Shown here: in pieces, positions 1,410 to 15,980 of the stretch
How positions within the stretch are numbered: the first letter of the stretch is position 1
Layout: each line of letters opens with the position of its first letter
Virus record (IMG/VR): IMGVR_UViG_3300007511_000154
Coordinates: 1 to 23,690 of that record
DNA from: a virus
Length of the DNA stretch: 23,690 nucleotides
Direction: 5' to 3' (one strand)
Position numbers and translations under genes: made by a program
The notes under the pieces: model-generated
What the model was told of the DNA's origin: nothing
What the model saw: only the letters and a program-made list of their open reading frames with translations
The model's database searches: none

Positions 1410-2144
1410 TTACCGTCCCTTCAGCTCGTTAGATCTTCTCTCTTTGCGATATGACTCACCGGCGAACGCGATAATCCGACCGTCGAATAAGCGATCGGTA
1501 AACGCTCGTGTCCCGGTCAATTCTTGTTCTTTGTTTCCCAACTGTTCCGGGTCAAGGTTGGATATAAATACGACGAACGATTCGGGGAACGACCGCAACG
1601 ATTCGAGTCTTTGTAACCAGTATTCAAAACCCCAAGCGGTCGGAGTCCGTCCGGTCTCGTCGACGAATAAAGGTTTAGGCCAAAAGTACGGGACGGTCCG
1701 GACCCGTTGGTCAACACCCTCCCCGATTGTCTCTTGGTACTGGCGGAATTGCCCGCCGTATTGCATCGCGAACCGGTCGGCGTCGTATTGGCTCATCGGA
1801 TGAGATCGCTCCGACGCGAACTTGTTATTCCTTATCACTTGGTCCCGGACGACCCGATCGACAACCCGGACGATCGACCGAGTAAAGAGATCTCGCTTCA
1901 TTGTTTCGGCGACAACAATCCCGGAGGCGAGGGATTTGCCGACGCCGTTTGGACCGAACCAGTATTGCAACCGGTCCCGCGACTGGATCGTTCGCTCGCC
2001 CGAAAGAATCCCTCTCCATTCGTCCCAAAAGTCTCGATCCCATTGTCCTCGATATTCCCAACCGTCGAACCCGTTCGCCGCTTGTAACGCGACGTCAGTT
2101 GTAAACCTCATCTCTGCTAACTTCTCGGCGATCCGTCTATCCAT
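1410..2144 (-). CDS. DnaC/IstB-like helicase loader ATPase
   Basis: A 244-aa AAA+ ATPase, probably loading the host replicative helicase at the phage origin (the role of lambda P or DnaC). Walker A GPNGVGKS is at about residues 64-71, the Walker B strand PLFVDETG at about 158-165, and a sensor-1 region with Asn (FVVFISNLDPEQL) at about 190-202. RAFTDRLFDGRIIAFAGESYR at about 213-233 resembles the arginine-finger segment that closes DnaC-type domains (EL.R..DR in cellular relatives). The start overlaps the end of the upstream initiator by 8 nt (ATGGATAG), a strong sign of coupled expression. Order on the transcript is initiator, loader, SbcC-like ATPase. IstB-type transposition helpers share this fold, but no transposase is nearby, so a replication role is more likely. 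Confidence 0.78.
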   Translation of the reverse strand: MDRRIAEKLAEMRFTTDVALQAANGFDGWEYRGQWDRDFWDEWRGILSGERTIQSRDRLQYWFGPNGVGKSLASGIVVAETMKRDLFTRSIVRVVDRVVRDQVIRNNKFASERSHPMSQYDADRFAMQYGGQFRQYQETIGEGVDQRVRTVPYFWPKPLFVDETGRTPTAWGFEYWLQRLESLRSFPESFVVFISNLDPEQLGNKEQELTGTRAFTDRLFDGRIIAFAGESYRKERRSNELKGR

Positions 2145-2925
2145 TCCACTCGCCTCCCTCGCTAACGTCTCTCAGCTCGTTTGCACGTTGGGCGGTTTGC
2201 ATATCCGCCTCAATCTCTTTCCATCGCTCGGCGCGACCGAACAGGTTCGTAACCTTGTAAGGATAATCGGTCGTCGCGAGGTCGGTCCTAATATAGAACC
2301 GAACCGCCCGTTCGATTTGTTCCGGATCTTCGCCTCGGACGATCGTGTTTTGGAGACTCCGTATCGCCCGGTCCCGGACTTCTTTCGTCGAGTACTTCGG
2401 AGGCCAAGTCGGGCGACTCTGGAGATAGAGGTCGACGAGATACTTTGCAATCCTAACAGCTCGACCCGGAGAGGTTTTGTTAGTTGTATCTTTCTCTCTG
2501 TTTGTTTCTGATCCATGAGGCGTTGACGCCTCATCCGATGAGCCGTTGTCGCCTCTTCCGGGTTCCTGTTGAGGCGTTCGCGCCTCTTCATGTTGAGGCG
2601 TTGGCGCCTCATCCGGGGCGTTATGAAAGGGGAGAGAGTATCGGGAGGCTTTGCCGGTCCGTTCCGTTGTAACCAGTCCGGCGCGGTTCAGTCGGGCGAG
2701 AGCTTTGTTAACGACTCCCCGGTCGACCGGTTGTTTCTGATCTTCGGCGAGCTGTTGGGCGAGGGTTGTTTGCTTGACGCGGATCAATCCATTCGCGCCC
2801 GCGTGTTCTTTCAATATCAGATAGAGGACGATCGCGGTTCCGTCCCGTCGAACCCGGACGAGCTCGCGAGTTTCACGTCTCGACAACATCTCGAACCGGG
2901 TTTGCTTTTGGTCCTCGGTGTTCAT
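2137..2925 (-). CDS. Lambda O-like replication initiator carrying internal iterons
   Basis: A 262-aa protein with three parts. Residues about 25-100 form a winged helix-turn-helix (TTLAQQLAEDQ, GVVNKALARLNRAGLVTTER, then a wing SRYSLP). Residues about 101-153 are a polar, low-complexity linker with repeats of the form EAxTPQ/H. Residues about 154-262 form a helical C-terminal domain likely to contact the helicase loader. The linker DNA holds four palindromic 20-mers and an AT-rich tract, the arrangement seen in the lambda O gene, whose linker encodes ori. The next gene is a DnaC-like loader overlapping by 8 nt, matching the lambda O-P order. The ATG at 2925 has only a weak ribosome binding site (AGATAGAAACT). 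Sequence similarity to lambda O itself is not claimed; the assignment rests on architecture and context. Confidence 0.72.
   Translation of the reverse strand: MNTEDQKQTRFEMLSRRETRELVRVRRDGTAIVLYLILKEHAGANGLIRVKQTTLAQQLAEDQKQPVDRGVVNKALARLNRAGLVTTERTGKASRYSLPFHNAPDEAPTPQHEEARTPQQEPGRGDNGSSDEASTPHGSETNREKDTTNKTSPGRAVRIAKYLVDLYLQSRPTWPPKYSTKEVRDRAIRSLQNTIVRGEDPEQIERAVRFYIRTDLATTDYPYKVTNLFGRAERWKEIEADMQTAQRANELRDVSEGGEWNG
2473..2514. other. AT-rich, pyrimidine-rich tract beside the iterons (candidate unwinding element)
   Basis: About 40 bp rich in T on the plus strand (TTTTGTTAGTTGTATC then TTTCTCTCTGTTTGTTTC) directly abut iteron 1. Flanking DNA is clearly richer in GC. In coding terms it specifies a polar segment (TNREKDTTNKT). 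In lambda ori an AT-rich tract lies next to the O-binding iterons and is where strands open; position and composition here match that plan. This is inference from layout. Confidence 0.5.
2515..2612. repeat. Four palindromic 20-bp iterons (candidate replication origin)
   Basis: Four copies of a near-palindrome lie at 2515-2534 (ATGAGGCGTTGACGCCTCAT), 2538-2557 (ATGAGCCGTTGTCGCCTCTT), 2569-2588 (TTGAGGCGTTCGCGCCTCTT) and 2593-2612 (TTGAGGCGTTGGCGCCTCAT). Starts are 23, 31 and 24 nt apart. Copies 1, 3 and 4 sit in the same codon phase and encode EA(S/R/P)TP repeats. Copy 2 sits in a different phase and encodes RGDNGSS, so its conservation is at the DNA level. They lie in the linker of the initiator gene and probably bind its product. 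Two more copies occur at 5120-5162. Confidence 0.85.
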
Positions 2926-3008
2926 AGTTTCTATCTGTCTCGTCTCATCGCGTTTTCGTGAAGGGACTCAGCTCGCGCCGCCTCGGTTCGTCACCGGGGC
3001 GGTACTTG

Positions 3009-3203
3009 TTACGGATCAACCTCTTTCCTCTCCCGATCATAAGCCTCGATCAGTTTGCGGCGGTTATCGCCTTGCGGCGTTGACTTGCCCGCTCTCCATC
3101 GCCGGACCGTTTGGACGTGGACGTCCGCAACGTCCGCTAGGTCGGCGGCGTGAGGGTATCGTTCGCCCAATCGCTCGAGCGCCTCTTCATATTTCGGTTG
3201 CAA
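3009..3203 (-). CDS. Small helix-turn-helix regulator
   Basis: A 64-aa protein whose residues about 19-40 (AADLADVADVHVQTVRRWRAGK) read as a compact helix-turn-helix, followed by a basic/acidic helix. It is probably a Cro- or repressor-type DNA-binding protein controlling the divergent promoter region directly upstream. I chose the TTG at 3203 because GAGGAGGAC lies a few bases upstream. An in-frame ATG at 3242 would add 13 residues (MLTFCIVRHRGGH) but has no ribosome binding site and runs through the promoter/operator region. It is first in the leftward replication operon, with an 83-nt gap before the initiator. Full-length CI-type repressors are longer, so Cro-like is the better analogy. 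Confidence 0.65.
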   Translation of the reverse strand: MQPKYEEALERLGERYPHAADLADVADVHVQTVRRWRAGKSTPQGDNRRKLIEAYDRERKEVDP

Positions 3204-3227
3204 ATGTCCTCCTCGATGGCGTACTAT
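3198..3227 (+). promoter_or_regulatory. Candidate sigma70-type promoter for the rightward genes
   Basis: TTGCAA at 3198-3203 and TACTAT at 3222-3227 are separated by 18 bp and each match 4 of 6 consensus bases. Transcription would begin near 3234, just at the dyad 3235-3252. The region is the only divergent intergenic space between the leftward and rightward gene blocks, which supports a promoter here. The -35 hexamer coincides with the TTG start region of the leftward HTH gene. Confidence 0.45.
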
Positions 3228-3234
3228 GCAAAAC

Positions 3235-3252
3235 GTGAGCAAACTAACTCAC
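3235..3252. promoter_or_regulatory. Dyad-symmetric candidate operator
   Basis: GTGAGCAAACTAACTCAC has 5-bp inverted half sites (GTGAG / CTCAC) with an 8-bp centre. It sits at the predicted transcription start of the rightward promoter and upstream of the leftward HTH gene, where a small HTH regulator would be expected to bind. Only one copy was noticed. Confidence 0.4.
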
Positions 3253-3264
3253 AAAAGCGGATCA

Positions 3265-3289
3265 AACAACCCGGAGGGAGTAGGTTGTT
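3265..3289 (+). promoter_or_regulatory. 5' leader hairpin presenting a Shine-Dalgarno-like loop
   Basis: AACAACC (3265-3271) and GGTTGTT (3283-3289) form a perfect 7-bp stem around an 11-nt loop containing GGAGGGAG. The right arm covers an in-frame TTG at 3285, 24 nt upstream of the ATG at 3309 that has its own GGAGGAC site. The hairpin could tune initiation at the first rightward gene, or be a DNA dyad bound by a regulator. Confidence 0.35.
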
Positions 3290-3308
3290 GTCCAACGAGG
3301 AGGACGAG

Positions 3309-3701
3309 ATGAGACAAGTAACCGGAGTATCGGCGAAGATTCTCCGCCTTTTTTACGAGGATCATTTGGACGAATCGTTCCAAGGCTGGATCTCGGAGAA
3401 CAAGATCCGGGAACGACTGAAACCCAAGTTCGAGTCTCCCGGCGCGGACGCCGGAGCGACCGAAGCGACCGAAGCGAAACGACTGTTCGACCAATGGGAG
3501 AAAGCAATGCTCCGGGATCAACGCGAGATCCCCGGCGCGTTGACCCGACTCGCCAAGCCGTCGGGCGCGGGAGGACACAACCCGCCGCTCCTAATGAAAG
3601 GGACGAACAGCTCGATCGGACATTACGACGGCGTCGCATTAACGCCAGAGGGCAAGGTCGCAATCGAGAAGCTCTTCGGAGGCGACGATGGAGCCGATTA
3701 A
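3309..3701 (+). CDS. Hypothetical protein, possible winged-helix, first rightward gene
   Basis: A 130-aa protein I do not recognise. The ATG at 3309 is chosen because GGAGGAC (3298-3304) lies at good spacing. An in-frame TTG at 3285 after GGAGGGAG is an alternative and would add 8 residues. The N-terminal half is helical and charged (LRLFYEDHLDESFQGWISEN). The C-terminus ends VALTPEGKVAIEKLF, and LTPxGxxxxxxL is typical of the wing and last helix of MarR/PadR-like winged helices, so DNA binding is possible. It overlaps the next gene by 14 nt. As the first gene of the rightward transcript it may be an early regulator, but that is inference. Confidence 0.65.
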   Translation: MRQVTGVSAKILRLFYEDHLDESFQGWISENKIRERLKPKFESPGADAGATEATEAKRLFDQWEKAMLRDQREIPGALTRLAKPSGAGGHNPPLLMKGTNSSIGHYDGVALTPEGKVAIEKLFGGDDGAD

Positions 3702-4152
3702 ACTTACCCGAGCCCAAGACGCCGCCCTCCTCACGATATGGCTCGACCAAATGTTCGCGAACGGGATTGGCGGTTCTCGTCGGCGGGTTTGCCCCGGAGT
3801 ACAGTATTACAAATATCGTTATTGGTTCCATCTCTACGGGATAAGGCGAGACGTAATCGGTCGATTGATCTCCGCCGGTATCCTCCAAGAGGGACGGATG
3901 AAAGTCGAAACGCTTTCCGGGTCGGTCGCGGGTCAACAGTCGTTCCAGACTTACCGCGACGAGAATCCCGCCTATTCATTCACTCCCGATGGAGACAAGT
4001 TTGTCCGATTGCAAATCCCGCGATGGATACGGGAGGGACGGATGAGCCAATACGACGCCGACGTCGGGTCGAATCTTGATTACAAGGAAAACGGAGGGAG
4101 TCGAAATGGCGAGCGAGCTGGAGTCGTATTACGTCAACGGTCGCGAGTATAA
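3688..4152 (+). CDS. Hypothetical protein, possible winged-helix
   Basis: A 154-aa protein of unknown function. The ATG at 3688 is preceded by GGAGGCGACG and overlaps the upstream gene by 14 nt. The middle is rich in aromatic and basic residues (VQYYKYRYWFHLYGIRRD), followed by a helix (VIGRLISAGILQEGR). AYSFTPDGDKFVRLQ echoes the TPEGK wing-like end of the neighbouring 130-aa protein, so the two may share a winged-helix fold. The C-terminal 15 codons overlap the following esterase gene by 47 nt, and that tail (GERAGVVLRQRSRV) is basic and may not be functionally constrained. Confidence 0.6.
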   Translation: MEPIKLTRAQDAALLTIWLDQMFANGIGGSRRRVCPGVQYYKYRYWFHLYGIRRDVIGRLISAGILQEGRMKVETLSGSVAGQQSFQTYRDENPAYSFTPDGDKFVRLQIPRWIREGRMSQYDADVGSNLDYKENGGSRNGERAGVVLRQRSRV

Positions 4153-5011
4153 GAGATACGTCCCGACCAATAGATCGGGGATCGTTTGCGTCGGGTTACA
4201 CGGGACCGACGGGACCGCCGAGGGATTCTTTGGTTCGGCGCAACTCCGAGAGATAGCGGACTCGACCGGATGGACTATCGTTTTACCGTTTGATCCGAGC
4301 GGCAAATGGTCGAAGAGCGATCTCCCGTATATCCATGAGGCGGCGCAACAAGAGGCGAACGGACCAATCGTCGTTTGCGGTCACTCCGCCGGTTCCGGGA
4401 TGGCGGTTCGTCTAGCATACGATTACAACGGTTATTATTGTGCGATTTGTTGCGTCCATTCTGGACTCCCGACCGGACTTGTTAATCGGTTCGATCCGGA
4501 CCAATACGAACACCCGATCAATATGCTCAAGATTTGCTCGGTTCACGACAAGCTCGACAATCACGACGACGGGTTACACTTCGCCCGGTTAGTCGCTTGG
4601 GCAAACGGACACGATCCAAAGCTCCCTCGGCGGAGTGGTCACGCCTCGCCAAAGGTCGAGGAGTTCAATTGGTTCAACGGCGTACCGGGCGGCGTTAACG
4701 AGGTCGGGTTCGTGTCGCTACACTGGCAACGGGACGGAGGAGTCCATACTTGGCCTCTCAAGTCGAAAGGTTCCGGGTACGACATAACGCGAGAGATGAT
4801 CGACTTTTTCTTACGCCATTTGAGCGGATCAGTCGCACCCGACGAACCGACGTTCACTATCCGAGCCGACGACCGATTCGGACCGGCGATTGTCCGGGAG
4901 TACGCCGACCGGGTCGAACGCTTCTATCCCGGCGCGAAACAAACGATCGCCGACGCGAGAGAACAGGCTAATAAAATGACGCTTTGGCAAGAGAAACACG
5001 AGACCGAATAA
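4106..5011 (+). CDS. Alpha/beta-hydrolase esterase (PHB depolymerase/LpqC-like)
   Basis: A 301-aa serine hydrolase. The oxyanion-hole motif LHGTDGT is at 31-37 and the nucleophile elbow GHSAG at 92-96 puts the catalytic Ser at 94. Asp151 in ICSVHDKLDNH matches the position of the acid in the HGTADP motif of LpqC-type esterases. His214 in GGVHTWP matches their GGHTWP motif. All triad positions are present. There is no signal peptide or membrane segment. The ATG at 4106 (site GGAGGGAG) is preferred over one at 4076. A C-terminal region of about 60 residues beyond the catalytic fold is charged and helical. The gene lies between regulatory and packaging genes, where lysis genes often sit. The substrate is unknown: cell-envelope ester, polyester or a small molecule are all possible. 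Confidence 0.78.
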   Translation: MASELESYYVNGREYKRYVPTNRSGIVCVGLHGTDGTAEGFFGSAQLREIADSTGWTIVLPFDPSGKWSKSDLPYIHEAAQQEANGPIVVCGHSAGSGMAVRLAYDYNGYYCAICCVHSGLPTGLVNRFDPDQYEHPINMLKICSVHDKLDNHDDGLHFARLVAWANGHDPKLPRRSGHASPKVEEFNWFNGVPGGVNEVGFVSLHWQRDGGVHTWPLKSKGSGYDITREMIDFFLRHLSGSVAPDEPTFTIRADDRFGPAIVREYADRVERFYPGAKQTIADAREQANKMTLWQEKHETE

Positions 5012-5119: not shown

Positions 5120-5162
5120 ATGAGGCGTTAACGTCTCATCGGATGAGGCGTCAACAGCTCAA
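5120..5162. repeat. Second iteron pair, intergenic
   Basis: Copies at 5120-5139 (ATGAGGCGTTAACGTCTCAT) and 5143-5162 (ATGAGGCGTCAACAGCTCAA) match the iterons of the initiator gene. The first is almost a perfect palindrome centred on GTTAAC; the second is degenerate in its right arm. Their 3-nt spacing (CGG between CTCAT and ATGAG) mirrors the CCG between copies 1 and 2 at 2535-2537. The site is non-coding, between a small ORF and the zinc-ribbon gene, so conservation cannot be due to protein sequence. Likely a second binding site for the initiator: an operator, an accessory origin or a handcuffing site. Confidence 0.75.
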
Positions 5163-5186: not shown

Positions 5187-5429
5187 GTGATCCAAGAGCA
5201 ACTCCATCACAAGAACAGTCGCGACAACGATAAGCTCTTTACGATCAATTGCGATTTGTGTCGACGGCGGACCGTCCAGATCGGACCCGATCGAAAGACG
5301 ATCGACCGGGCGATGAGGGCGCTCGGATGGATGTTACAAAAGAACGGCGACGGTTGTCGTTGTACCCGTTGCCGAAAGAAACGAGGCGTCCCTTGGGGCG
5401 CGTGGAGAAAACGTTGTAACGAGTGCTAA
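5187..5429 (+). CDS. Small zinc-ribbon protein
   Basis: An 80-aa protein starting at GTG (5187) after AAGAGG. Cysteines form CxxC at 22-25, then C57-x-C59-xx-C62, and a C-terminal CNEC at 77-80. The first two clusters are spaced as in a zinc ribbon, and the domain between them (DRAMRALGWM) is helical. It is basic and probably nucleic-acid binding. The GTG lies 25 bp downstream of the second iteron pair, so iteron occupancy could affect its transcription. Proteins of this type are common in phage early or pre-packaging regions, but their role is unknown. Confidence 0.65.
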   Translation: MIQEQLHHKNSRDNDKLFTINCDLCRRRTVQIGPDRKTIDRAMRALGWMLQKNGDGCRCTRCRKKRGVPWGAWRKRCNEC

Positions 5430-5743: not shown

Positions 5744-6287
5744 GCGAACTTTCTCGCAACGGGAGCACGATCTCCTCTTTGTCGCGAACTCAATCCTCGA
5801 GGGCAAGGGTCCGACCGAGATCACGGTCGAACTAAACGATCGGAACAAGTACGATCTTTGTCGTCAACAGGTCTCGTATGATATCCGGACCATTTGGAAA
5901 GAATGGCAAACCGAGCGCCTCAAGAACTTGGACGGATGGAAAACACGTCAAATCGCTATCCTCATGAAGATCGAGCGCGAAGCTTGGGAAGCTTGGGAGC
6001 TATCGAAAGACCCGGAGGTTTCGCGTGAAACAGGATCGACCTCGGCGGTTATCTCCGCCAAGACGGGCGCGATCGCGGTTCTCCCGGCGGAAAAGGTAAC
6101 GACTCGAGAGAACGAGGTCGGCGACCCGAAGTTCCTCCAAGTCGTTATCAAATGCGAGGAGCGGATCTCTCAAATCTTGGGGATTGATGAACAGCCAAAC
6201 ACCTCCCTCAATAAAGTTATCCAAGTTATTCTCCACTCCGACTCCGGACGAGACCTCTTGCCTGAGCCGGAACCGGGCAATCTCTAG
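5730..6287 (+). CDS. Terminase small subunit-like HTH protein
   Basis: A 185-aa protein with an N-terminal helix-turn-helix (LLFVANSILEGKGPTEITVE, then SYDIRTIWKEWQTER) followed by a long helix with KIEREAWEAWELSK. That helix closely resembles a segment seen in phage HTH proteins encoded just before the large terminase. It would recognise the phage DNA and hand it to the large subunit for packaging. The ATG at 5730 follows GGAGACGAGCTCGG. Its 3' end overlaps the large terminase gene by about 100 nt, an unusually long overlap. Immediate adjacency to the large terminase is the main support. Confidence 0.7.
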   Translation: MAKNKRTFSQREHDLLFVANSILEGKGPTEITVELNDRNKYDLCRQQVSYDIRTIWKEWQTERLKNLDGWKTRQIAILMKIEREAWEAWELSKDPEVSRETGSTSAVISAKTGAIAVLPAEKVTTRENEVGDPKFLQVVIKCEERISQILGIDEQPNTSLNKVIQVILHSDSGRDLLPEPEPGNL

Positions 6288-7623
6288 CGATCAGGTCAAG
6301 CGGTTAACCATCGCCGACAACTTCGCTCCGTTCTTTCGGGATCAGTCCCGGACGCTTTTATCTTGGGGCGGAGCCGGTTCGGCGAAGTCGCACTCCGCCG
6401 CTCAAAAGATTATCCTCCGGGTTAACCGGGCATTCGATCACAACCCGGAGAACGTCCATCGGTTCCTCGCCCTCCGTAAAGTCGGGAAGTCGGTTCGAAA
6501 GTCCGTTTTTCAATTGGTCCGCCATTACATCTCAGAGCTCGGACTTAACGACGTCGTCAAGACGAACCGGTCCGAGTTCTTTTTCGAATGGTCCAACGGG
6601 TCCGTTATCTATTGCGGCGGGATGGACGACCCGGAAAAGATCAAGTCGATCGAGGGTATTACTGGCATTTGGTGTGAGGAGTTTACTGAGTTCTCTCGGG
6701 ACGATTGGCTCCAACTCGACCTCCGATTACGCGGTAACCCTTGGGCATACAAACAACTGATCGGAACGTTCAATCCGATTCAGGTTACGAGCTGGATCGC
6801 GGAGGAATGGTTCGGGGACGATTCGTCCCTAATGCCGACCGGCGACGAGACTGAACTGGACGATCGTTATAAGCGAATAATCGACAAACAGGGAGAGGCT
6901 GTTTGCGCGTTTCAATCCAATTACGACGACAATCCATTCCTCGACGAACCTTACCTCCGCCGGTTGCGCGGACTCGCCGACGTCGACGAGTACTTTCATC
7001 GCGTCTATACGCTCGGACTTTGGGGGCATCCGAAAGGATTGATCCTCCGGAACTGGCGAGTAACCGACGCGGTCTCGACCGATCCGGAGTATTACGATCA
7101 AGTCTCGGCGGGCGCAGACTTCGGATATAACGACCCGGCGACTCTAATTCGTACCGGGATGAAAGACGGAGTCCTCCATATCTTCGGCGAGCCGATATTC
7201 CAAACCGAACTAATCACGAAACAGCTCGTCGAGGAATACCGGACGGCGGGACTCGGACCTCGCGAACGGGTTATCGCCGACTCCGCCGGGACCGAGCCGA
7301 TCCAAGCTATTAGACGCGAGCGGATCGTCGCCGGGATTCGAGCTTGCGAGAAGTATCCGAACATGATCGCGGACGATATCGACTATCTCCTCTCGTTGCC
7401 GGAGATTCTGATTCATCCGTCTTGCGTTAACACGATCCGCGAGTTCGGTTCGTGGAAGTGGAGAGAGGATCGTAAGGGTCGTATATTGGAGGAGCCGGTT
7501 GCTTACGACGATCACGCGATCGACGCGATCCGTTACGCGACTCAACGGTATCGCCGCGCCAAGGCGACGGGCGGCGGATTAGGGTATTCCGGGCGGTCGA
7601 TGAAAAACAGGAGAGGGCGATGA
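6187..7623 (+). CDS. Terminase large subunit
   Basis: A 478-aa packaging motor with ATPase and nuclease domains, PBSX/XtmB-like. A Walker A-type loop SWGGAGSAKSH lies at about 59-69 and the Walker B strand GIWCEEFTEF at about 160-169. RNaseH-like nuclease acidic residues lie in SAGADFGYNDPATLIR (about 307-322), VIADSAG (about 360) and AYDDHAIDAIRYA (about 439-451). I take ATG 6187 as the start, with TTG 6184 also possible; the site TTGGGG is weak. No start codon is seen between the end of the small-subunit gene and the first conserved block, so the long overlap with that gene seems real. The end overlaps the portal gene start by 4 nt (ATGA). Confidence 0.93.
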   Translation: MNSQTPPSIKLSKLFSTPTPDETSCLSRNRAISSDQVKRLTIADNFAPFFRDQSRTLLSWGGAGSAKSHSAAQKIILRVNRAFDHNPENVHRFLALRKVGKSVRKSVFQLVRHYISELGLNDVVKTNRSEFFFEWSNGSVIYCGGMDDPEKIKSIEGITGIWCEEFTEFSRDDWLQLDLRLRGNPWAYKQLIGTFNPIQVTSWIAEEWFGDDSSLMPTGDETELDDRYKRIIDKQGEAVCAFQSNYDDNPFLDEPYLRRLRGLADVDEYFHRVYTLGLWGHPKGLILRNWRVTDAVSTDPEYYDQVSAGADFGYNDPATLIRTGMKDGVLHIFGEPIFQTELITKQLVEEYRTAGLGPRERVIADSAGTEPIQAIRRERIVAGIRACEKYPNMIADDIDYLLSLPEILIHPSCVNTIREFGSWKWREDRKGRILEEPVAYDDHAIDAIRYATQRYRRAKATGGGLGYSGRSMKNRRGR

Positions 7624-9086
7624 ACGTACTCCAGAAACTGGGACGAGCGTTCCGGGCGGGCGCGAAACCGGAGACGATTCCGGATCGCGGGAGTCTCCTC
7701 GAGACCGTTGTCGGACCGACCCGATACGAGACGCAACGAACATATGTAACCGACGGGATCACGCCCGAGGATCTTACCTCGATCCTCAAGTCCGCCGATA
7801 CCGGACACGTCTCCCGCCAATCCGAACTATTCTCCGCCATCGAGGAAAAGGACTCCCGGATCGGCGGCGTACTCCAAACTCGCCGGGTGGCAGTATCTTC
7901 ACTCAAATGGGAGATAATTCCGGCGTCCAGCAAACCAGAGGACGAGGAACGCGCCGCACAAATGAGGGAGTATATCCAAGCGATCCCTCAACTCCGCGAA
8001 TCAATGACAACGCTCCTCGACGCGATCGGGCGAGGGTACTCCGGACTCGAGATCCATTGGGAGTATAAAGACAACCAGCTCTTGCCGAGCGAGTTGACTT
8101 GGGTCCATCCGTCGCGATGGACTTTCTACGGCGTTGATTCGAACGCCGCGAACCCTCTGATCTTTTACGGGACGCCTCAACTATTGACCGACGAGAACCC
8201 GTCCCTCGGTATCCCGCTCCAACCGTTCAAGTTTATTTTCCATCGTGCTCGCCATCGCGCCGGGTATCCGAACACCTCCGGACTTTGTCGGGCGCTTGTC
8301 TGGTATTGGCTCCTCAAGAACTACTCGCTCAAGGATTGGGCGGTATTGCTCGAGCGGTACTCAATGCCATTCCGTTACGCAACCTACCCGGACGGAACCG
8401 AGGACGACGAGAAGCTCGATATGATGAACGAGCTCGCTCAAATGGGTACGGACGGATTCGGTATTGTCCGGGACGACGCCGAGATCCATTTCGTCGACGC
8501 CTTGAATGCGGGACACACGACAACGAACAAAGAGTTCGCCGAGTACCTCGACAAAGAGATCACGATTCTCGTTCTTGGACACGCCGGATTGAGCGAGGGA
8601 ACACCGGGCAAGCTCGGCAACGAACAGGCGGCAAGCGACCTCCGCCAAGACTTACTCGCAGCCGACGCGATGCAATTGGAAGAGACGCTCAACGATCAGC
8701 TCCTCCTCCCGATCTCGATATACAATTTCGGCGAGGACGTCGCGCCTCCGCGCCTCCAATTCTCCGTCGACCCGCCGATCGACCTCCAACGCGAAGCCGA
8801 TCGCGATATCAAGATCCTCGGAACAGGGATTGCAACCTCGGAACGAGCATTTCGCGAAAAGTACAATATCCCGGCTCCGGAATCCGAAAAGGACGAGCTC
8901 GTTATCAAACCTCAATCGAACGGATTCGGAGGGCTCCCGTTCGAAGCGAAGCTCATTCGAGCCAACGCGGCGGACGACGACTCGTCCGAGCTGGATCGGA
9001 TCGAGGACGGTCAAAAAAAAAGAGTCCGGCGTACCTCGATCTCGTCAATGAGATTGAACTTCAAATCCGGGGATGGAACTCCCTAA
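7620..9086 (+). CDS. Portal protein, DUF935/Mu gp29-like
   Basis: A 488-aa portal forming the dodecameric ring for DNA passage. DUF935 hallmarks are the strand VLQTRRVAVSSLKWEI, YSGLEIHWEY, WVHPSRWTF and KDWAVLLERYSMPFRYATYP at about 237-256, then LGHAGLSEGTPG. The ATG at 7620 overlaps the terminase stop. The frame ends at 9086, and the last 22 residues after the A9 run (RVRRTSISSMRLNFKSGDGT and beyond) are basic and do not look like portal sequence. In the -1 frame the sequence continues directly into the F-like minor head protein. The natural product may therefore be this short form plus a portal-F fusion, or only the fusion if the A-run length in this sequence is wrong. Confidence 0.92.
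   Translation: MNVLQKLGRAFRAGAKPETIPDRGSLLETVVGPTRYETQRTYVTDGITPEDLTSILKSADTGHVSRQSELFSAIEEKDSRIGGVLQTRRVAVSSLKWEIIPASSKPEDEERAAQMREYIQAIPQLRESMTTLLDAIGRGYSGLEIHWEYKDNQLLPSELTWVHPSRWTFYGVDSNAANPLIFYGTPQLLTDENPSLGIPLQPFKFIFHRARHRAGYPNTSGLCRALVWYWLLKNYSLKDWAVLLERYSMPFRYATYPDGTEDDEKLDMMNELAQMGTDGFGIVRDDAEIHFVDALNAGHTTTNKEFAEYLDKEITILVLGHAGLSEGTPGKLGNEQAASDLRQDLLAADAMQLEETLNDQLLLPISIYNFGEDVAPPRLQFSVDPPIDLQREADRDIKILGTGIATSERAFREKYNIPAPESEKDELVIKPQSNGFGGLPFEAKLIRANAADDDSSELDRIEDGQKKRVRRTSISSMRLNFKSGDGTP
9013..9022 (+). promoter_or_regulatory. A9G slippery sequence: candidate -1 frameshift site
   Basis: Nine A then G. In the portal frame it reads CAA AAA AAA AGA; after -1 slippage it reads AAA AAA AAG AGT into the F-like frame. 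A AAA AAA in the zero frame fits the X XXY YYZ rule. It is followed by G AGT, as in E. coli dnaX. GAGG at 9003-9006 is a Shine-Dalgarno-like element, closer to the slip site than the 10-14 nt known in dnaX. A weak 5-bp stem (9039-9043 with 9050-9054) lies downstream. A homopolymer sequencing error is the competing explanation. Confidence 0.6.
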
Positions 9087-9901
9087 CCGACTATCCGTCG
9101 CTCACGATCTCCGACGAGGCGGTCCAGTCCCTCGCCGATCAATTGTATGAGTTCTCCGTCCTTTCCTATTTGACCGGCGGATATGCATTCCGAAAGCGCC
9201 ATCTCCCCAAGTCGCTCGAAGCGGCGGCGACTATCGAGGACGTATGGTCCGAACCGTTCCTCGAAGCGGTCGAGTTCTTTATTCGGAAAGGCGTAATCAG
9301 TCGCGCCGACTTCGATAAGTTACCCGACGCTCTGAAGGCGAAGTATTTCACGATCGCCGGGTTCGAGTCCGAGGATTTGATCGAGGCGGTCCAATTGGTC
9401 GTCCGCGACACGATCCAAGACGGAGCGACTCTGAACGAGTTTCGCAAGTCGCTCTCGGAGACGCTCGACCATCTCGGCGTCGGTCCGACTCGTCCTTGGC
9501 ATATCGACTTGATCTATTCGCAAAACGCCTCGAACAGTTATCACGCGGGTTTTTTTGAAACCTTGCACCAACCCGACGTCGTCGAGGAGTTCCCGTATCT
9601 CGAATATCTTTCGATGGACGACGACCGGGTACGACCCGCGCATATCGCTCTCGACGGTCGTATATTCTCTACGAGTGAGATCGGCGCGTTCTATCCGCCT
9701 AACGGATTCCGTTGTCGTTGTACTGTCGCGCCGCTATCGCGAGCCGAGGCCGAGGCCCGAGGAGTTGTCGGGCCTGACCAAATCCCCGAGACGATCACGA
9801 TTACTCTAGAAGACGGGACGGAGAGAACCTATCCGGTTGTACCGGACAAGGGATTCAACGCGGACCCGAGCGAGGCGTTCCGCGAACCTCCGGAGCGTTG
9901 A
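9014..9901 (+). CDS. Mu F-like minor head protein, read in the -1 frame after the portal
   Basis: From the slippery site this frame encodes about 295 aa ending in TGA at 9901. Features typical of the Mu F / SPP1 gp7 minor head family include FLEAVEFFIRKGVISRADFD, a stretch through AKYFTIAGF and DLIEAVQLVVRDTIQDG, the polar block LIYSQNASNSYHAGFFETLH, VRPAHIALDGRIF, and the C-terminal YPPNGFRCRCTV. No ATG or GTG occurs in this frame from about 8900 to the conserved core; the first canonical start is a TTG near 9142, inside the coding region and without a ribosome site. It is therefore most simply made as a portal-F fusion by -1 frameshifting. The last base pair overlaps the next gene (TGATG). 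Its role is head assembly, probably at the portal vertex. Confidence 0.82.
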   Translation, partial: KKKSPAYLDLVNEIELQIRGWNSLTDYPSLTISDEAVQSLADQLYEFSVLSYLTGGYAFRKRHLPKSLEAAATIEDVWSEPFLEAVEFFIRKGVISRADFDKLPDALKAKYFTIAGFESEDLIEAVQLVVRDTIQDGATLNEFRKSLSETLDHLGVGPTRPWHIDLIYSQNASNSYHAGFFETLHQPDVVEEFPYLEYLSMDDDRVRPAHIALDGRIFSTSEIGAFYPPNGFRCRCTVAPLSRAEAEARGVVGPDQIPETITITLEDGTERTYPVVPDKGFNADPSEAFREPPER

Positions 9902-11067
9902 TGAAACGCCGTCCCAATTCTAAGAACTTTGGAACCGAACCGCGTCGGCTCAAAGCCGATCACGGCGACGGGACTCCTCCCACAACCCTCCATCTCTTCC
10001 CGTTCGGGATGTTTCTCGGACACCCGGTCGGAGCCTTTGAAGTAACCGAACTCGCAGTCCAACAAATGATCGCGAACTTTTCAAAGTTCGATATCGACGT
10101 TGTCGTCGACTTCGATCACGCGACCGAGGAATGGTCGTCCGTCGGCGATACCGCCAAAGCGGCGGGTTGGATTAAAAAGATTTGGCGCGAGGACGACGGT
10201 TTATACGGCGAGGTCGAATGGAACGCCGACGCCGCCGAGGCAATTGCGGCGGGCGAATGGCGTTATATCTCTCCGTCTTGGTGGACTGACGCACAAGATC
10301 CAGTAACCGGCGACGCTATCGGATGGCGACTCGTTTCGGTCGGACTGGTTAACCGCCCGTACTTCGATGAACTCGGGGCGATAGCAAAAGACAAAGGAGT
10401 CGACGAAATGACGCTCGATCCAAAGACTATCGAGGCGCTCGGATTGAACGCCGACGCGACCGACGAACAGATTAACGAAGCTCTTACCAAACGCCTCGAA
10501 TCCGACTCGCAAGACGACGTCGCCAAGACGCTCGGTTTCGAATCGTTCGACGCGATGAAAGAGAAGCTCGCGGCGGAGTCAACCGACGAGCCGACCAACG
10601 AACCAACCGTCGACGAGACTAAGATCGTCTCGGACGAAGTCGCCTCAATGTTCGACCTCGAACCGGGAGCGACCGTTAGCGACGTCCGCGCCGCGAAGCT
10701 CAAGCTCCAGATCGGCGACGACACTATCGCGCAACGCCTCGCCAAACTCGAAGAGGATCGGGCAAACGAGCGGGTCGACGTACTCATCGCCAAGGCGAAA
10801 GAGGACGGTAAGATCACTCCGGCGACGGAGAAAGACTTCCGTATCCTCGCCAAGTCCAACCCGGAACAGGTCGAGAAGCTTTTGGCCTCGGCTCCTCGTG
10901 TTGTCGACTTGGATAATCACAACACGAACGACCCGACGAGCAACGGCGCGGAGACCTACGTTCTCTCCGCCAAGGACAAGAAAGTCGCCGCCTCGCTCGG
11001 ACACGATCTCGAAGTTCACGCGAAGCATTCCGCCAAGATCGAAGACGTTAAGGCGGGCAAGCGATAA
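9901..11067 (+). CDS. Mu I-like prohead protease with C-terminal scaffold
   Basis: A 388-aa protein. Residues 1 to about 165 match the Mu I-type maturation protease: LFPFGMFLGHPVGAFEVT, VVVDFDHATEEW, AAGWIKKIW, YGEVEWNADA, EWRYISPSWWTD, and SVGLVNRPYF. Residues about 170-388 are charged and helical, as expected of a scaffold (EALTKRLESDSQDDVAKTLG and RLAKLEEDRANERVD), with a low-complexity TDEPTNEPTVDE linker. The ATG at 9901 overlaps the F-like stop; an in-frame TTG at 9898 is less likely. In Mu, gene I encodes the protease and an internal start yields the scaffold Z; an internal start is also visible here. It would cleave scaffold and head proteins during prohead maturation. Confidence 0.88.
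   Translation: MKRRPNSKNFGTEPRRLKADHGDGTPPTTLHLFPFGMFLGHPVGAFEVTELAVQQMIANFSKFDIDVVVDFDHATEEWSSVGDTAKAAGWIKKIWREDDGLYGEVEWNADAAEAIAAGEWRYISPSWWTDAQDPVTGDAIGWRLVSVGLVNRPYFDELGAIAKDKGVDEMTLDPKTIEALGLNADATDEQINEALTKRLESDSQDDVAKTLGFESFDAMKEKLAAESTDEPTNEPTVDETKIVSDEVASMFDLEPGATVSDVRAAKLKLQIGDDTIAQRLAKLEEDRANERVDVLIAKAKEDGKITPATEKDFRILAKSNPEQVEKLLASAPRVVDLDNHNTNDPTSNGAETYVLSAKDKKVAASLGHDLEVHAKHSAKIEDVKAGKR
10408..11067 (+). CDS. Nested in-frame scaffold (Mu Z-like) from an internal start
   Basis: Inside the protease gene, ATG 10408 is preceded by AAAGGAG (10393-10399) at 8 nt, a stronger ribosome site than that of many genes here. The frame is shared and gives 219 aa beginning MTLDPKTIEALGLNADATDE, exactly at the protease-scaffold junction. 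This copies the Mu I/Z arrangement, where separate scaffold is made in excess over the protease-scaffold fusion. Expression is inferred from the ribosome site and the domain boundary. Confidence 0.65.
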   Translation: MTLDPKTIEALGLNADATDEQINEALTKRLESDSQDDVAKTLGFESFDAMKEKLAAESTDEPTNEPTVDETKIVSDEVASMFDLEPGATVSDVRAAKLKLQIGDDTIAQRLAKLEEDRANERVDVLIAKAKEDGKITPATEKDFRILAKSNPEQVEKLLASAPRVVDLDNHNTNDPTSNGAETYVLSAKDKKVAASLGHDLEVHAKHSAKIEDVKAGKR

Positions 11068-11081
11068 CCCTCGTCGGAGGG
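11068..11081 (+). terminator. Small hairpin after the protease/scaffold gene
   Basis: CCCTC (11068-11072) and GAGGG (11077-11081) pair around GTCG immediately after the TAA. There is no T-run, so it is more likely an mRNA-end or attenuating hairpin than a strong terminator. Confidence 0.3.
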
Positions 11082-11130
11082 AAAACGAAAGCTCATACGA
11101 GCACAAGTCCACTCCTAGGAGGGAGCTAAA

Positions 11131-11907
11131 ATGGCAGCACTCACCGAGTCTCGAAATACCGTCCTCCATTTGGGCGGGTTTGCATCGCCTCCGGCTCACG
11201 ACGCTCCGATGGCGGCGTCCGAGACAATCTACGGCGGATCAATGGTTTGCCGTAACGCCTCCGGGTACGCCGTATCGGCGGCGAATACCGCCGACTTTGT
11301 ATTCGCCGGGATCGCGAAAACCATTTTCGACAATTCGTCCGGAGCGGCGGCGGCGATGGACGCGGAGATTTATTACGGCGTCCCGTTCGAAATGACGATC
11401 GCGGGCGCGGCGCTTACCGACGTCGGTCGCCCGGTATTCATCACCGACGATCAAACCCTCTCGCTCTATGGCGGGAACGTCCCGGTCGGGCATATCTGGA
11501 AGTACATCTCCGCGACTTCGGTAATGGTTATGCCGGGTCCGGTCCGCTTCGGATATGTCGACATACCGGTCGCGTTGTCTGAGATCTCGGCGGACGCGGA
11601 CGTCGGCGACGGGATTACGGCGACGTTCAATTACTTGATTACAAAGACGAGTTTTCACGTCTTGACCAAGTCAACAGGAGCGGGCGCGGACGTCGACCTC
11701 AAGCTCGAGATCGGAACGACCGACGTAACCGGCGGAGACGTTACACTCACACTCGCAACGACCAACACGGCGGGCGACGTTGTGGACGGCGCGGCGATCA
11801 CGGCGGAGAACTACGTCCACGCGGGCGACGTCCTCCAAGTCGACGCGGATCATACGACTGACTTTACGGCGGGCGACGGACTCCTCCGGGTCCATTACGC
11901 CCGATAA
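11131..11907 (+). CDS. DUF2190-type capsid decoration protein with C-terminal beta domain
   Basis: A 258-aa protein between the protease and the major capsid gene, the usual place for a head-decorating protein. Residues about 1-135 fit DUF2190: an ESRNTVLHLGG opening, ETIYGGSMVCRNASGYAV, FAGIAKTIFDNSSGAAAAMD, a GVPFEM strand, and VFITDDQTLSL. Residues about 145-258 are a separate beta-rich domain (DVGDGITATF, VTLTLATTN, YVHAGDVLQVDAD) like the add-on domains often found at the ends of phage capsid and decoration proteins. The start is unambiguous (AGGAGGGAG, 8 nt, ATG). Expected role: binding the capsid surface to stabilise the filled head. Confidence 0.8.
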   Translation: MAALTESRNTVLHLGGFASPPAHDAPMAASETIYGGSMVCRNASGYAVSAANTADFVFAGIAKTIFDNSSGAAAAMDAEIYYGVPFEMTIAGAALTDVGRPVFITDDQTLSLYGGNVPVGHIWKYISATSVMVMPGPVRFGYVDIPVALSEISADADVGDGITATFNYLITKTSFHVLTKSTGAGADVDLKLEIGTTDVTGGDVTLTLATTNTAGDVVDGAAITAENYVHAGDVLQVDADHTTDFTAGDGLLRVHYAR

Positions 11908-11927
11908 GTAGTCCAGAACCAAAGAGC

Positions 11928-11951
11928 ACTCGTTTGGACGGACGAACGAGT
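11928..11951 (+). terminator. Hairpin between decoration and major capsid genes
   Basis: ACTCGTT (11928-11934) and AACGAGT (11945-11951) form a perfect 7-bp stem with a 10-nt loop. It lies 20 nt after the decoration stop and about 35 nt before the capsid start. There is no T-run. It could be an attenuator or an mRNA-processing or stabilising hairpin that sets the capsid mRNA apart. Confidence 0.35.
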
Positions 11952-11988
11952 TAGAGATACGACAACAACTCATTAAGGAGAACCGACG

Positions 11989-12864
11989 ATGATTCTCGGG
12001 ATCGAAGCAATCGAGGCCGTCCAGCGGGGACTCAATACGTCTTTTCAAGAGGCGTACAACCGAACCAAAGTCCTCTACGAACAACTCTCGATGGTCGTTA
12101 ACTCGACCGCCGGAGTTGAGGAGTGGCCTTGGTTTGATCTAACGGGCGATATGAAGGCTTGGAAATCCACGCTTCAGCTCGGACATATCAAGCTCAACGA
12201 TTGGACTATCACAAATGAGGATTATGAGAACTCGATCCTCATTCCGAAAAACGATATCGACGACGATAAGATCGGCGTTTACGGTCCGTTGTTCGATACA
12301 ATGGGAATGAACGCGAAGCGCCATCCGGACAAGCTCTTGTCCGACTTGCTCTCCGCCGGGTTTGACGACGATTGTTACGACGGGGAGAAGTTCTATTCCG
12401 CGACTCATCCGATCCCCGGATCGTCCGACGTTAACGACAACCTACACGCCGGAGCATTGGCGGCGGCGACGTTCCAAACCGCCCGCGCCGGACTGTTGAA
12501 AATGAAAGGCGGCGGGTCGAATTACTTCAATAACCCGGACGACTCTTTCATTCTCGCAGTCCCGCCCGAACTCGAATCGACCGCCGAGTCTATTGTAATG
12601 GCGGATTACTTGGCGAGCGGCGCGACCAACACGAACAAGGGAAAAGCGAGGGTCCAAGTAATGCCTCGCCTCGCGACGACTACCGAATGGCATTTGCTGA
12701 ACGAGTCGCTCCCGATCAAACCCTTGATAACTCAGATACGACTCGCGCCGTATGTCGATTACGACGCGCCCAAGACGTCGCTCGATGTTGTGTACTTCTC
12801 GCACTATCGAGGCGCTTGTGGGTACGGACTGCCAGTCCTTGCGATTGGTTCACCCGGAACCTAA
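11989..12864 (+). CDS. Major capsid protein, Mu T-like
   Basis: A 291-aa capsid subunit. Mu T-type features are the N-terminal block LNTSFQEAYNRTKVLYEQLS, WFDLTGDMKAWKSTLQLGHI, a long DYENSILIPKNDIDDDKIG segment, GEKFYSATHPIPGS, and LAVPPELESTAESIVMADYL. The ATG follows AAGGAGAACCGACG. Length is close to Mu gpT. It is flanked on both sides by hairpins, and a strong terminator-like element follows, which fits a highly expressed gene. There is no N-terminal delta-domain; scaffold is supplied by the upstream protease/scaffold gene. Confidence 0.92.
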   Translation: MILGIEAIEAVQRGLNTSFQEAYNRTKVLYEQLSMVVNSTAGVEEWPWFDLTGDMKAWKSTLQLGHIKLNDWTITNEDYENSILIPKNDIDDDKIGVYGPLFDTMGMNAKRHPDKLLSDLLSAGFDDDCYDGEKFYSATHPIPGSSDVNDNLHAGALAAATFQTARAGLLKMKGGGSNYFNNPDDSFILAVPPELESTAESIVMADYLASGATNTNKGKARVQVMPRLATTTEWHLLNESLPIKPLITQIRLAPYVDYDAPKTSLDVVYFSHYRGACGYGLPVLAIGSPGT

Positions 12865-12886
12865 GTCGTAACCGGGCAACACCTCG

Positions 12887-12902
12887 GAGGGAGCAATCCC
12901 TC
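12887..12902 (+). promoter_or_regulatory. GNRA-capped hairpin upstream of the capsid terminator
   Basis: GAGGGA (12887-12892) and TCCCTC (12897-12902) pair around a GCAA tetraloop. The GGAGGGAG at 12886-12893 is also fully complementary to CTCCCTCC at 12915-12922 in the following terminator stem, so the two structures can be mutually exclusive. Confidence 0.45.
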
Positions 12903-12911
12903 GTGTCCGAT

Positions 12912-12942
12912 AAGCTCCCTCCCTCATGTTGGGAGGGAGTTT
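12912..12942 (+). terminator. Rho-independent terminator-like hairpin after the major capsid gene
   Basis: CTCCCTCCC (12915-12923) and GGGAGGGAG (12931-12939) form a perfect 9-bp stem with a 7-nt loop, extended by AAG/TTT and followed by TTTCT. It lies about 50 nt after the capsid stop. The short T-run suggests partial termination, giving more capsid than tail mRNA. Confidence 0.7.
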
Positions 12943-12958
12943 CTACTTGGAGCCGACG

Positions 12959-13690
12959 ATGGCGTATTGCGACCGAGACGATATCATTATCGCGATCGAC
13001 GAACACGATCTCATCCAGTTACTCGACGATGAGCGTATTCTCGACGATTTGAAAGCGGGCAAGATATACCAATTCCAAGTCGACACGAACGCGACCTCCG
13101 GGCATTTCGAGACCTCGGGCGACGTCGCGGTTACGCTTGGACCCGGCAATACAGCGCCTCGTGTCCGGGCGAATAGCAAGTTCCGGCTCTCGTCCGGTTG
13201 GTATGAGATAACTTCGATCACGGACGACGGCGAAGCCGCCGACGAGGTCGCGGTTTCGACGTGTTATTATGGCGACGCCGTTCCCGATACTGGCGTTTAC
13301 ATCGTCGAGGAGATGGAGCCGGAAAAGGCGGAGGAACGACTCGATCGTTATATCGCCGACGCCGACGCTTGGATCGACACGGTACTCCGTCGCAACGGAT
13401 GGACGGTCCCGGTTACGATGGACGGTTCGTCCGACGCAAACACGATTCGGAACGTCGCGGTCGAGCACGTTAAGCGGAACCTCTTTACAAGGCGTAAAGG
13501 ATTCAATCCCGAGAAGTCGCCCTATACGTTGCGCGGCAACAAACAGCTCGAGGATATGTTGACGGCGCTCAAACCGTCTCACGCTTCCGATCTATTGACG
13601 ATTCAAAGCCGCGACGAGTATATGCAAGGACGGACCGAGACTCCGTTTTATCAACAGAATCGCTCGCGGGATAAGATGAGGGGTTGGTAA
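12959..13690 (+). CDS. gp36-like (DUF1320) connector protein with an inserted domain
   Basis: A 243-aa protein. DUF1320 connectors begin with a short helix and continue into a helical core. Here the opening MAYCDRDDIIIAIDEHDLIQLLDDERI is separated from the core (EKAEERLDRYIADADAWIDT and onward, VEHVKRNLFTRRKGF) by about 90 residues of beta-rich sequence (about 28-118; strands around FETSGDVAVTLGPG, FRLSSGWYEITSIT, TGVYIVEEM). The family is usually about 140-150 aa, so the insertion explains the extra length. ATG 12959 is chosen over an upstream frame extension because TTGGAG precedes it and the extension would run through the terminator. Its stop overlaps the next start (TAATG). Role: head-tail joining. 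Confidence 0.78.
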   Translation: MAYCDRDDIIIAIDEHDLIQLLDDERILDDLKAGKIYQFQVDTNATSGHFETSGDVAVTLGPGNTAPRVRANSKFRLSSGWYEITSITDDGEAADEVAVSTCYYGDAVPDTGVYIVEEMEPEKAEERLDRYIADADAWIDTVLRRNGWTVPVTMDGSSDANTIRNVAVEHVKRNLFTRRKGFNPEKSPYTLRGNKQLEDMLTALKPSHASDLLTIQSRDEYMQGRTETPFYQQNRSRDKMRGW

Positions 13691-14217
13691 TGGCGAGCGG
13701 CGATATCCATATTTCGGCGAACTTGATCGGAGCGAAAGAGCTCCAAGCGAAGCTCTCGAAGATTATTAGCAAAGGCGACGACTTGACTCGTCCGTTTCGG
13801 GATTCCGTTGTTCAAATGATCGGGTCGGTCCGCCGGAACTTTCGCGAGGAGGGACGTCCTGACCGTTGGCCAGAATCTCAACGGGTTATCTTGGGGCAAG
13901 GCGAACGGACGCTCCGGATCACTGGCGCTCTAATGAACTCGGTGAACGGGCGGGCGTCTAAGAGGCGAATGACGATCGGGTCAAATCTTGATTACGCGGC
14001 GATTCACCAATTCGGAGGATCAACGCCGCCTCATGTTATTGAGCCGGTCAACGCCAAGGCGCTCCGATGGTTCGGACCCGGCGGCGGAGCGATCTTCGCG
14101 AAGCGGGTTAACCATCCCGGAAGTGAGATCCCGGCGCGACGGTTCGCGATGTTCCATAAGGACGATCGTAAGTTTATTGTCGACCGGGTATCCCGACACG
14201 TCAACGGGAGGCGATAA
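13690..14217 (+). CDS. Mu G-like virion morphogenesis / tail completion protein
   Basis: A 175-aa protein. It carries the family pattern of an N-terminal helix (LIGAKELQAKLSKI), RPFRDSVVQMIGSVRRNFREEG with PDRWPES, LRITGALMNSV, then IGSNLDYAAIHQFGG and the C-terminal IPARRFAMF. This is the order of motifs in Mu gpG-type proteins that complete the tail or neck. The ATG at 13690 shares its A with the upstream TAA. An in-frame TTG six bases earlier is unlikely. It overlaps the next gene as TAATG, so gp36-, G- and gp37-like genes are one coupled block. Confidence 0.88.
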   Translation: MASGDIHISANLIGAKELQAKLSKIISKGDDLTRPFRDSVVQMIGSVRRNFREEGRPDRWPESQRVILGQGERTLRITGALMNSVNGRASKRRMTIGSNLDYAAIHQFGGSTPPHVIEPVNAKALRWFGPGGGAIFAKRVNHPGSEIPARRFAMFHKDDRKFIVDRVSRHVNGRR

Positions 14218-14687: not shown

Positions 14688-15980
14688 ATGGCAGTCGATA
14701 CAACTAATATCGCGTTCGGGACGGCGTTTATCAGGTTCCTCCCTCACCAAATAGGAGCGGACTATTCGTCGACGGGAGAGCCGTTCCTTGCGACAATGCT
14801 CGACTCGACGGTTTATATCGGTTTCACAACGAACGGCGGCGAAGTCCAGCTCGACGCGAACGTTCTCGAGTTTGAAGTTCAAGAGGAGACGTTCCCGGTT
14901 GGACTCGGTGTCGTCTCGGCGTCGACAAAAATATCGTTCGAGTCTCCCAATCTCGGGAACGAGTTACTCTTAGCCCGAACGCTCGGGTTGTTGGAGAACG
15001 AAGAGGAGACGATTAGCTCCAAGGAATACTATACAGCGACCGGGATCAAGGTAATTCCGCAAGGGTTCGGCGTGTTGATATCGCAACGTCGCCAAGACGG
15101 GAACGGGTTCGATCACATATACGCGCCGAACTGCCAGATCGACGCCTCGGATTGGGCGGTTACATATGCGAGGACCGAGCTCCGAAAAAAGACGATAACC
15201 CTAATCGCTCACGCGAGCGATCAGGCGGCGCTCCTCATGCCATTGCAAGGCGCGAATAAACACGCCTCAATCTCGTATCTCGAGCAAGCGGCGGCGACGG
15301 TCGAGTTTTCGAAATGTCTCCGACACGACGGGTCTCATACAACCGACAACCCGGTCCATATGTCTCACGGGTTAGGGATCGACGCCGGGGCGGCTGAGAT
15401 CACGACCGGCGGATACGGGAGCGTCGATCGTGATTCCGAACATATCGTCTCTCATGGCGAGTATATGATCCGTCTCTCGTCGGTAACTTCGGGAAACGAG
15501 GTATTTATTGCTTGCGGCGTACCGTCGGCCCTGGCGTCGACCGGAGCGTCGGAACATCATTGGAACCGAACCGCGTCGGCTCAATGGACGCTTGCGGCGA
15601 AACATATGACATATACCGCGCCAATGATTATCCGAGCGTTCGATATGGAGGGACAACTCCTCACGCCGACCGATATCACTTATACGGACGGAGCGCCGGG
15701 AGTCGGACAAATCGTCCTCGACTTTGCGTCCGCCGTCGCGGGTCGGGCGATCGTTTGTTTGACTGGACCGAACGGAGCGTTAACTGCGTCGCCAACACCG
15801 GCGACGACTTGGGTTATATCGGCGGCGGGTAATACCGATCATCTCCCGTTTATCTTTGCTTGTATGGATGGATCGAACAACCCGATCGAACCGCTCTCGT
15901 ACTCATACGACGGCGGAGCCGAAGAGTACACATTGAACTGGGGATCGTCTCAAGCGGGGACGTACCGCGCCATTTTTTAA
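14688..15980 (+). CDS. Tail tube-type protein with C-terminal extension
   Basis: A 430-aa protein. Residues about 1-195 read as a tail tube-like beta fold (VYIGFTTNGGEVQLDANVLE, SISFESPNL-like strand, YYTATGIKVIPQGFGVLISQ, IYAPNCQIDASDWAVTYART and KKTITLIAHASDQAA). The same block recurs in the next gene. Residues about 200-430 add repeated beta-sandwich-like sequence (FIACGVPSALASTG, APMIIRAFDMEGQLL, GAPGVGQIVLDFASAVAG) that could be Ig-like decoration on the tail surface. The start is clear (AGGAGCCGACG, ATG). Alternatives are a minor tube variant or a collar protein. Confidence 0.6.
   Translation: MAVDTTNIAFGTAFIRFLPHQIGADYSSTGEPFLATMLDSTVYIGFTTNGGEVQLDANVLEFEVQEETFPVGLGVVSASTKISFESPNLGNELLLARTLGLLENEEETISSKEYYTATGIKVIPQGFGVLISQRRQDGNGFDHIYAPNCQIDASDWAVTYARTELRKKTITLIAHASDQAALLMPLQGANKHASISYLEQAAATVEFSKCLRHDGSHTTDNPVHMSHGLGIDAGAAEITTGGYGSVDRDSEHIVSHGEYMIRLSSVTSGNEVFIACGVPSALASTGASEHHWNRTASAQWTLAAKHMTYTAPMIIRAFDMEGQLLTPTDITYTDGAPGVGQIVLDFASAVAGRAIVCLTGPNGALTASPTPATTWVISAAGNTDHLPFIFACMDGSNNPIEPLSYSYDGGAEEYTLNWGSSQAGTYRAIF

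Follow-up and report, generated by a model that had tools for sequence, protein, structure and literature searches.

O proteins are dimers, and the iteron bound by O in phage lambda is a 19-bp imperfect inverted repeat that has been noted to form hairpins (PMC7466680). In lambda's own record four 18-bp iterons are annotated in the 299-codon O gene (starts 39034, 39054, 39078 and 39101), where they occupy codons 117-145 with a spacing of 20, 24 and 23 bp. After iteron 4 comes an A-rich stretch with the lowest stability of its region, and gene P overlaps the end of O. The origins of the Stx phages P27 and 933W have six iterons (PMC7466680). Iteron number varies in the O linker of Stx phages, adding or removing linker residues, as expected of a tolerant linker. 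In phage SPP1, gp38 binds oriL, which is inside gene 38, and oriR, which is in a gap of the late region; gp38 at oriR has been proposed to stall replication forks and to bring about the change to concatemer synthesis (PMC6316719, PMC3485210).

Here we describe a locus in the IMG/VR record IMGVR_UViG_3300007511_000154. Positions 2474-2612 of this record are very probably a replication origin of the lambda/SPP1 type located inside its own initiator gene, at which, we infer, the initiator is bound, the DNA is melted and the helicase is loaded. The architecture is already known; the iteron sequence is new.

The record and its gene order

The window, that is, the whole stretch of 23,690 bp that was analysed, is probably a fragment of a virus genome, and a tailed phage is the best explanation for its source. 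The minus strand encodes an SbcC-like ATPase (47-1408, phrog_1499), a DnaC-like helicase loader (1410..2144, phrog_3277, E=3.8e-8) and an O-like replication initiator of 262 aa (2137..2925). The loader gene lies directly downstream of the initiator gene, in the position of lambda P, and the two genes share an 8-bp overlap. The late genes are on the plus strand. They code for a PBSX-type terminase and for Mu-like portal, F-like, protease I-like and gpT-like head proteins (6184-14217), which are found here alongside a replication module of the O/DnaC type. The gene at 4106-5011, one of those preceding the terminase, codes for a protein with a weak resemblance to alpha/beta-hydrolases or esterases (best Pfam E=0.002). 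The proteins scanned, a subset of the ORFs, included no recognisable transposase, and searches for tRNAs and Rfam families in the window found none. The cumulative GC skew has its minimum at 2386, on a plateau at approximately 2.2-4.0 kb; this position is in favour of an origin at 2474-2612, although the minimum is confounded by the divergent directions of the genes.

The initiator gene was recognised by its match to PHROG_345 ('replication initiation O-like', E=3.7e-5), which is modest. The layout of the protein is a winged-helix N-terminal part, a linker (residues about 101-153) and a helical C-terminal part. A single-sequence AF2 model of low confidence (pLDDT 48) has the helix-strand order of a winged helix, and when this model was used in Foldseek the viral matches included replisome organizers and replication initiators. 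Searching solved structures gave chance matches only. No similarity to lambda O was detected by BLASTP, so there is more support for a protein that works in the manner of lambda O than for a lambda O homologue. Initiator and loader, when compared with annotated phages, gave no match.

Four iterons in the linker-coding region

Four 20-bp inverted repeats, all written on the plus strand, start at 2515, 2538, 2569 and 2593 (spacing 23, 31 and 24 bp, or 24, 31 and 23 bp in the direction of the gene) and correspond to codons 105-137 of the 262 codons of the initiator gene. The arms of copy 1 (ATGAGGCGTTGACGCCTCAT, 2515..2534) are paired at all 8 positions, those of copy 4 (TTGAGGCGTTGGCGCCTCAT, 2593..2612) at 7 of 8, and those of copy 2 (ATGAGCCGTTGTCGCCTCTT, 2538..2557) and copy 3 (TTGAGGCGTTCGCGCCTCTT, 2569..2588) at 6 of 8. 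The preliminary description, made from the letters of the sequence, had reported a four-copy palindrome in the linker-coding region of a winged-helix gene. This was borne out by a motif pattern search allowing up to 3 mismatches, which gave 11 strand-hits in the window as against 0.23 expected from shuffled sequences.

Copies 1, 3 and 4 share a codon phase (offsets 0, 54 and 78), whereas copy 2 has a different one (offset 23). It had been stated that copy 2 keeps the palindrome in spite of being out of phase; the phase difference holds, but the palindrome is weaker than was implied, as is that of copy 3. When the linker was recoded synonymously, four motif hits were obtained in none of 20,000 recodings, and the maximum, 3 hits, was reached in 10 of them. 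Together with the deviating phase of copy 2, this excludes that the repeats merely reflect a repeated peptide. The DNA of the linker region is either itself constrained or else was copied recently. Thus the earlier claim that the DNA rather than the peptide is conserved is right in that the DNA is more strongly patterned than the peptide demands, but recent copying would also fit: the sole relative found is 99.9% identical, and therefore selection on the DNA and recent duplication are not separable.

An AT-rich stretch beside copy 1

On the side coding for the C-terminal part of the protein, copy 1 is touched by an AT-rich stretch (2474-2513) that the preliminary description had overlooked. 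A nearest-neighbour stability scan ranked it second least stable among the non-overlapping 40-bp stretches of the record. On the initiator-sense (minus) strand it is A-rich and T-poor, with A at 24 of the 45 bases of 2470-2514, and we propose it as the DNA unwinding element.

A second cluster of sites

Scanning for the 20-mer had been suggested earlier, and on this record the scan yielded six sites. Four of them are inside the initiator gene, where all had been placed; the other two are new and form an intergenic cluster at 5120-5162. Site 5 (ATGAGGCGTTAACGTCTCAT, 5120..5139) is on the plus strand and site 6 (TTGAGCTGTTGACGCCTCAT, 5143..5162) is on the minus strand. Together they repeat the 43 bp of 2516-2558, the segment containing copies 1 and 2, in inverted orientation and with 86% identity. 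The second cluster is 2.6 kb from the first and is flanked by a short ORF and by the gene at 5187, ahead of the terminase genes. With a weight matrix derived from all six, a scan of 25.7 kb recovered those six alone, with scores of 28-31 bits, and the next best score, 14, was at the level of simulated maxima. The flanks of the second cluster are within the 2-4% least stable 40-mers, i.e. mildly unstable.

The second cluster may be an accessory site for the same initiator, such as a further origin or, in the manner of SPP1 oriR, a fork barrier; judging from the present analysis, we give this reading about even chances. Given how mild the instability of its flanks is, the cluster is at least as likely to be a barrier or to play an accessory part as to fire as a second origin.

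Relatives and database searches

Searches of IMG/VR with the initiator, loader, terminase and portal proteins found one relative only, 3300009378_000077, which differs from the record by 17 mismatches, none of them in the sites. The initiator found no relative among genome contigs, and the loader gave one weak match (E=6.5e-4) when 291 and 398 genomes were sampled from two phyla. Tandem arrangements of the motif were represented in IMG/VR by only three unrelated coding repeats, and in genomes by coding repeats and dispersed palindromes. The exact 18-mer was seen in other IMG/VR contigs as scattered single matches, at about chance level. The rep gene of TP901-1, scanned with similar settings, has no such array, indicating that the iteron array is not common to every DnaD/O-like gene.

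Palindromes of the GAGGCGTNNACGCCTC type were seen dispersed at loci of Planktothrix (L029, L044), Mucilaginibacter (L045) and Rhodoblastus (L038). Some of the palindromes at cyanobacterial loci have GTAG just before them, and these we take to resemble REP elements. In the literature consulted, the only match to a GAGGCG palindrome in cyanobacteria was a primer sequence.

Alternative explanations

The most serious rival to an origin is a dispersed host repeat, since Planktothrix has similar palindromes at 13 dispersed places and other genomes have a few copies. According to this explanation the palindromes would be a REP-like element of the host that landed in the tolerant linker and, in one case, between genes, and would have no role in replication. 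The occurrence of the 43-bp two-copy block at two separate places and in opposite orientations is what such an element could produce. However, there are only six copies in 25.7 kb, and four of them are where lambda has its iterons, beside the second least stable stretch of the record. Moreover, the TNNA that the Planktothrix repeat has at its centre is missing from copies 2-4, and the chance-level frequency of the exact 18-mer in other IMG/VR contigs also speaks against a dispersed element. We regard this explanation as improbable.

The two other explanations are weaker. A phage repressor could use the sites as operators or silencers, much as dispersed stoperators are used, and the small HTH protein encoded at 3009-3242 would be a candidate. 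Inverted repeats are typical of operators, an HTH_3 protein (E=6.5e-5) is indeed encoded nearby, and the second cluster is intergenic and upstream of late genes. Nevertheless, the divergent promoter region beside the HTH gene (approximately 2926-3310) contains none of the sites, and four clustered copies within a coding region, next to an unstable stretch, would be unusual for operators; we therefore think it unlikely that the sites serve a repressor. A function of the repeats as RNA or single-strand hairpins, for instance in translational control of the initiator mRNA, is very improbable: the initiator-sense RNA of 2500-2630 folds much better than shuffled sequences (z=-4.9), but any set of inverted repeats would do so and lambda iterons form hairpins as well (PMC7466680), the second cluster folds weakly (z=-1.9), there is no Rfam match, and the AT-rich neighbour is left unexplained.

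Comparison with known origins and proposed mechanism

The reading of the locus as an O-like origin, put forward in the preliminary description, is supported by the PHROG_345 match, by the DnaC-like loader encoded downstream and by the lambda-like layout of the iterons; from these we infer origin activity. As in the lambda ori, the central part of the initiator gene holds four inverted-repeat iterons of 18-20 bp at a spacing near 20-30 bp, an A-rich unstable stretch is found on the C-terminal-coding side, and the loader gene follows downstream with a short overlap. Unlike in lambda, the loader fits DnaC-like profiles, there are two additional sites outside the initiator gene, and the initiator has no BLASTP similarity to O. 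The iteron had been called unrelated to that of lambda and more symmetric. Its sequence is unrelated, but the difference in symmetry is small and symmetry as such is not new, since the iterons of lambda are imperfect inverted repeats too. The six iterons of P27 and 933W differ from the six sites found here in having lambda-type sequences and in being all inside gene O.

With respect to layout, the locus resembles SPP1 oriL/oriR, one repeat cluster being in the initiator gene and another in an intergenic gap near late genes. In SPP1, however, oriL and oriR are separated by 12-13 kb and each is accompanied by an AT-rich region, whereas the clusters described here are 2.6 kb apart and the second one consists of two sites with a weakly unstable flank.

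For an origin at 2474-2612 the following mechanism can be proposed. The initiator, probably as a dimer and through its winged-helix domain, would bind the four 20-bp inverted-repeat iterons, and its assembly would strain and open the A-rich stretch 2474-2513. The C-terminal part of the initiator would then recruit the DnaC-like loader encoded by the overlapping downstream gene, and the loader would load the replicative helicase, leading to theta replication. The same initiator may also bind the sites at 5120-5162, which would then serve as an accessory site.

An origin of this kind would place lambda/SPP1-style initiation in a divergent phage lineage, one that carries Mu-like head genes and for which no close relative turned up in the collections searched. 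A second cluster of initiator sites would make the SPP1 oriR idea, an initiator-bound fork barrier causing the switch to concatemers, testable outside Bacillus phages. Tentatively, and with more doubt than confidence, we suggest that the phage combines a Mu-like head module with a lambda/SPP1-style theta origin, that its other initiator-binding cluster, close to the terminase genes, serves as a late origin or as a barrier to forks, and that the iteron is unrelated to any described.

Other repeats in the window

Two exact duplications were noticed in addition. A 22-bp sequence is present in inverted orientation at 1776-1797 and 4041-4062, in two genes, and both copies encode the peptide MSQYDAD. 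A 25-bp direct repeat occurs at 9929-9953 and 15560-15584, in two late genes.
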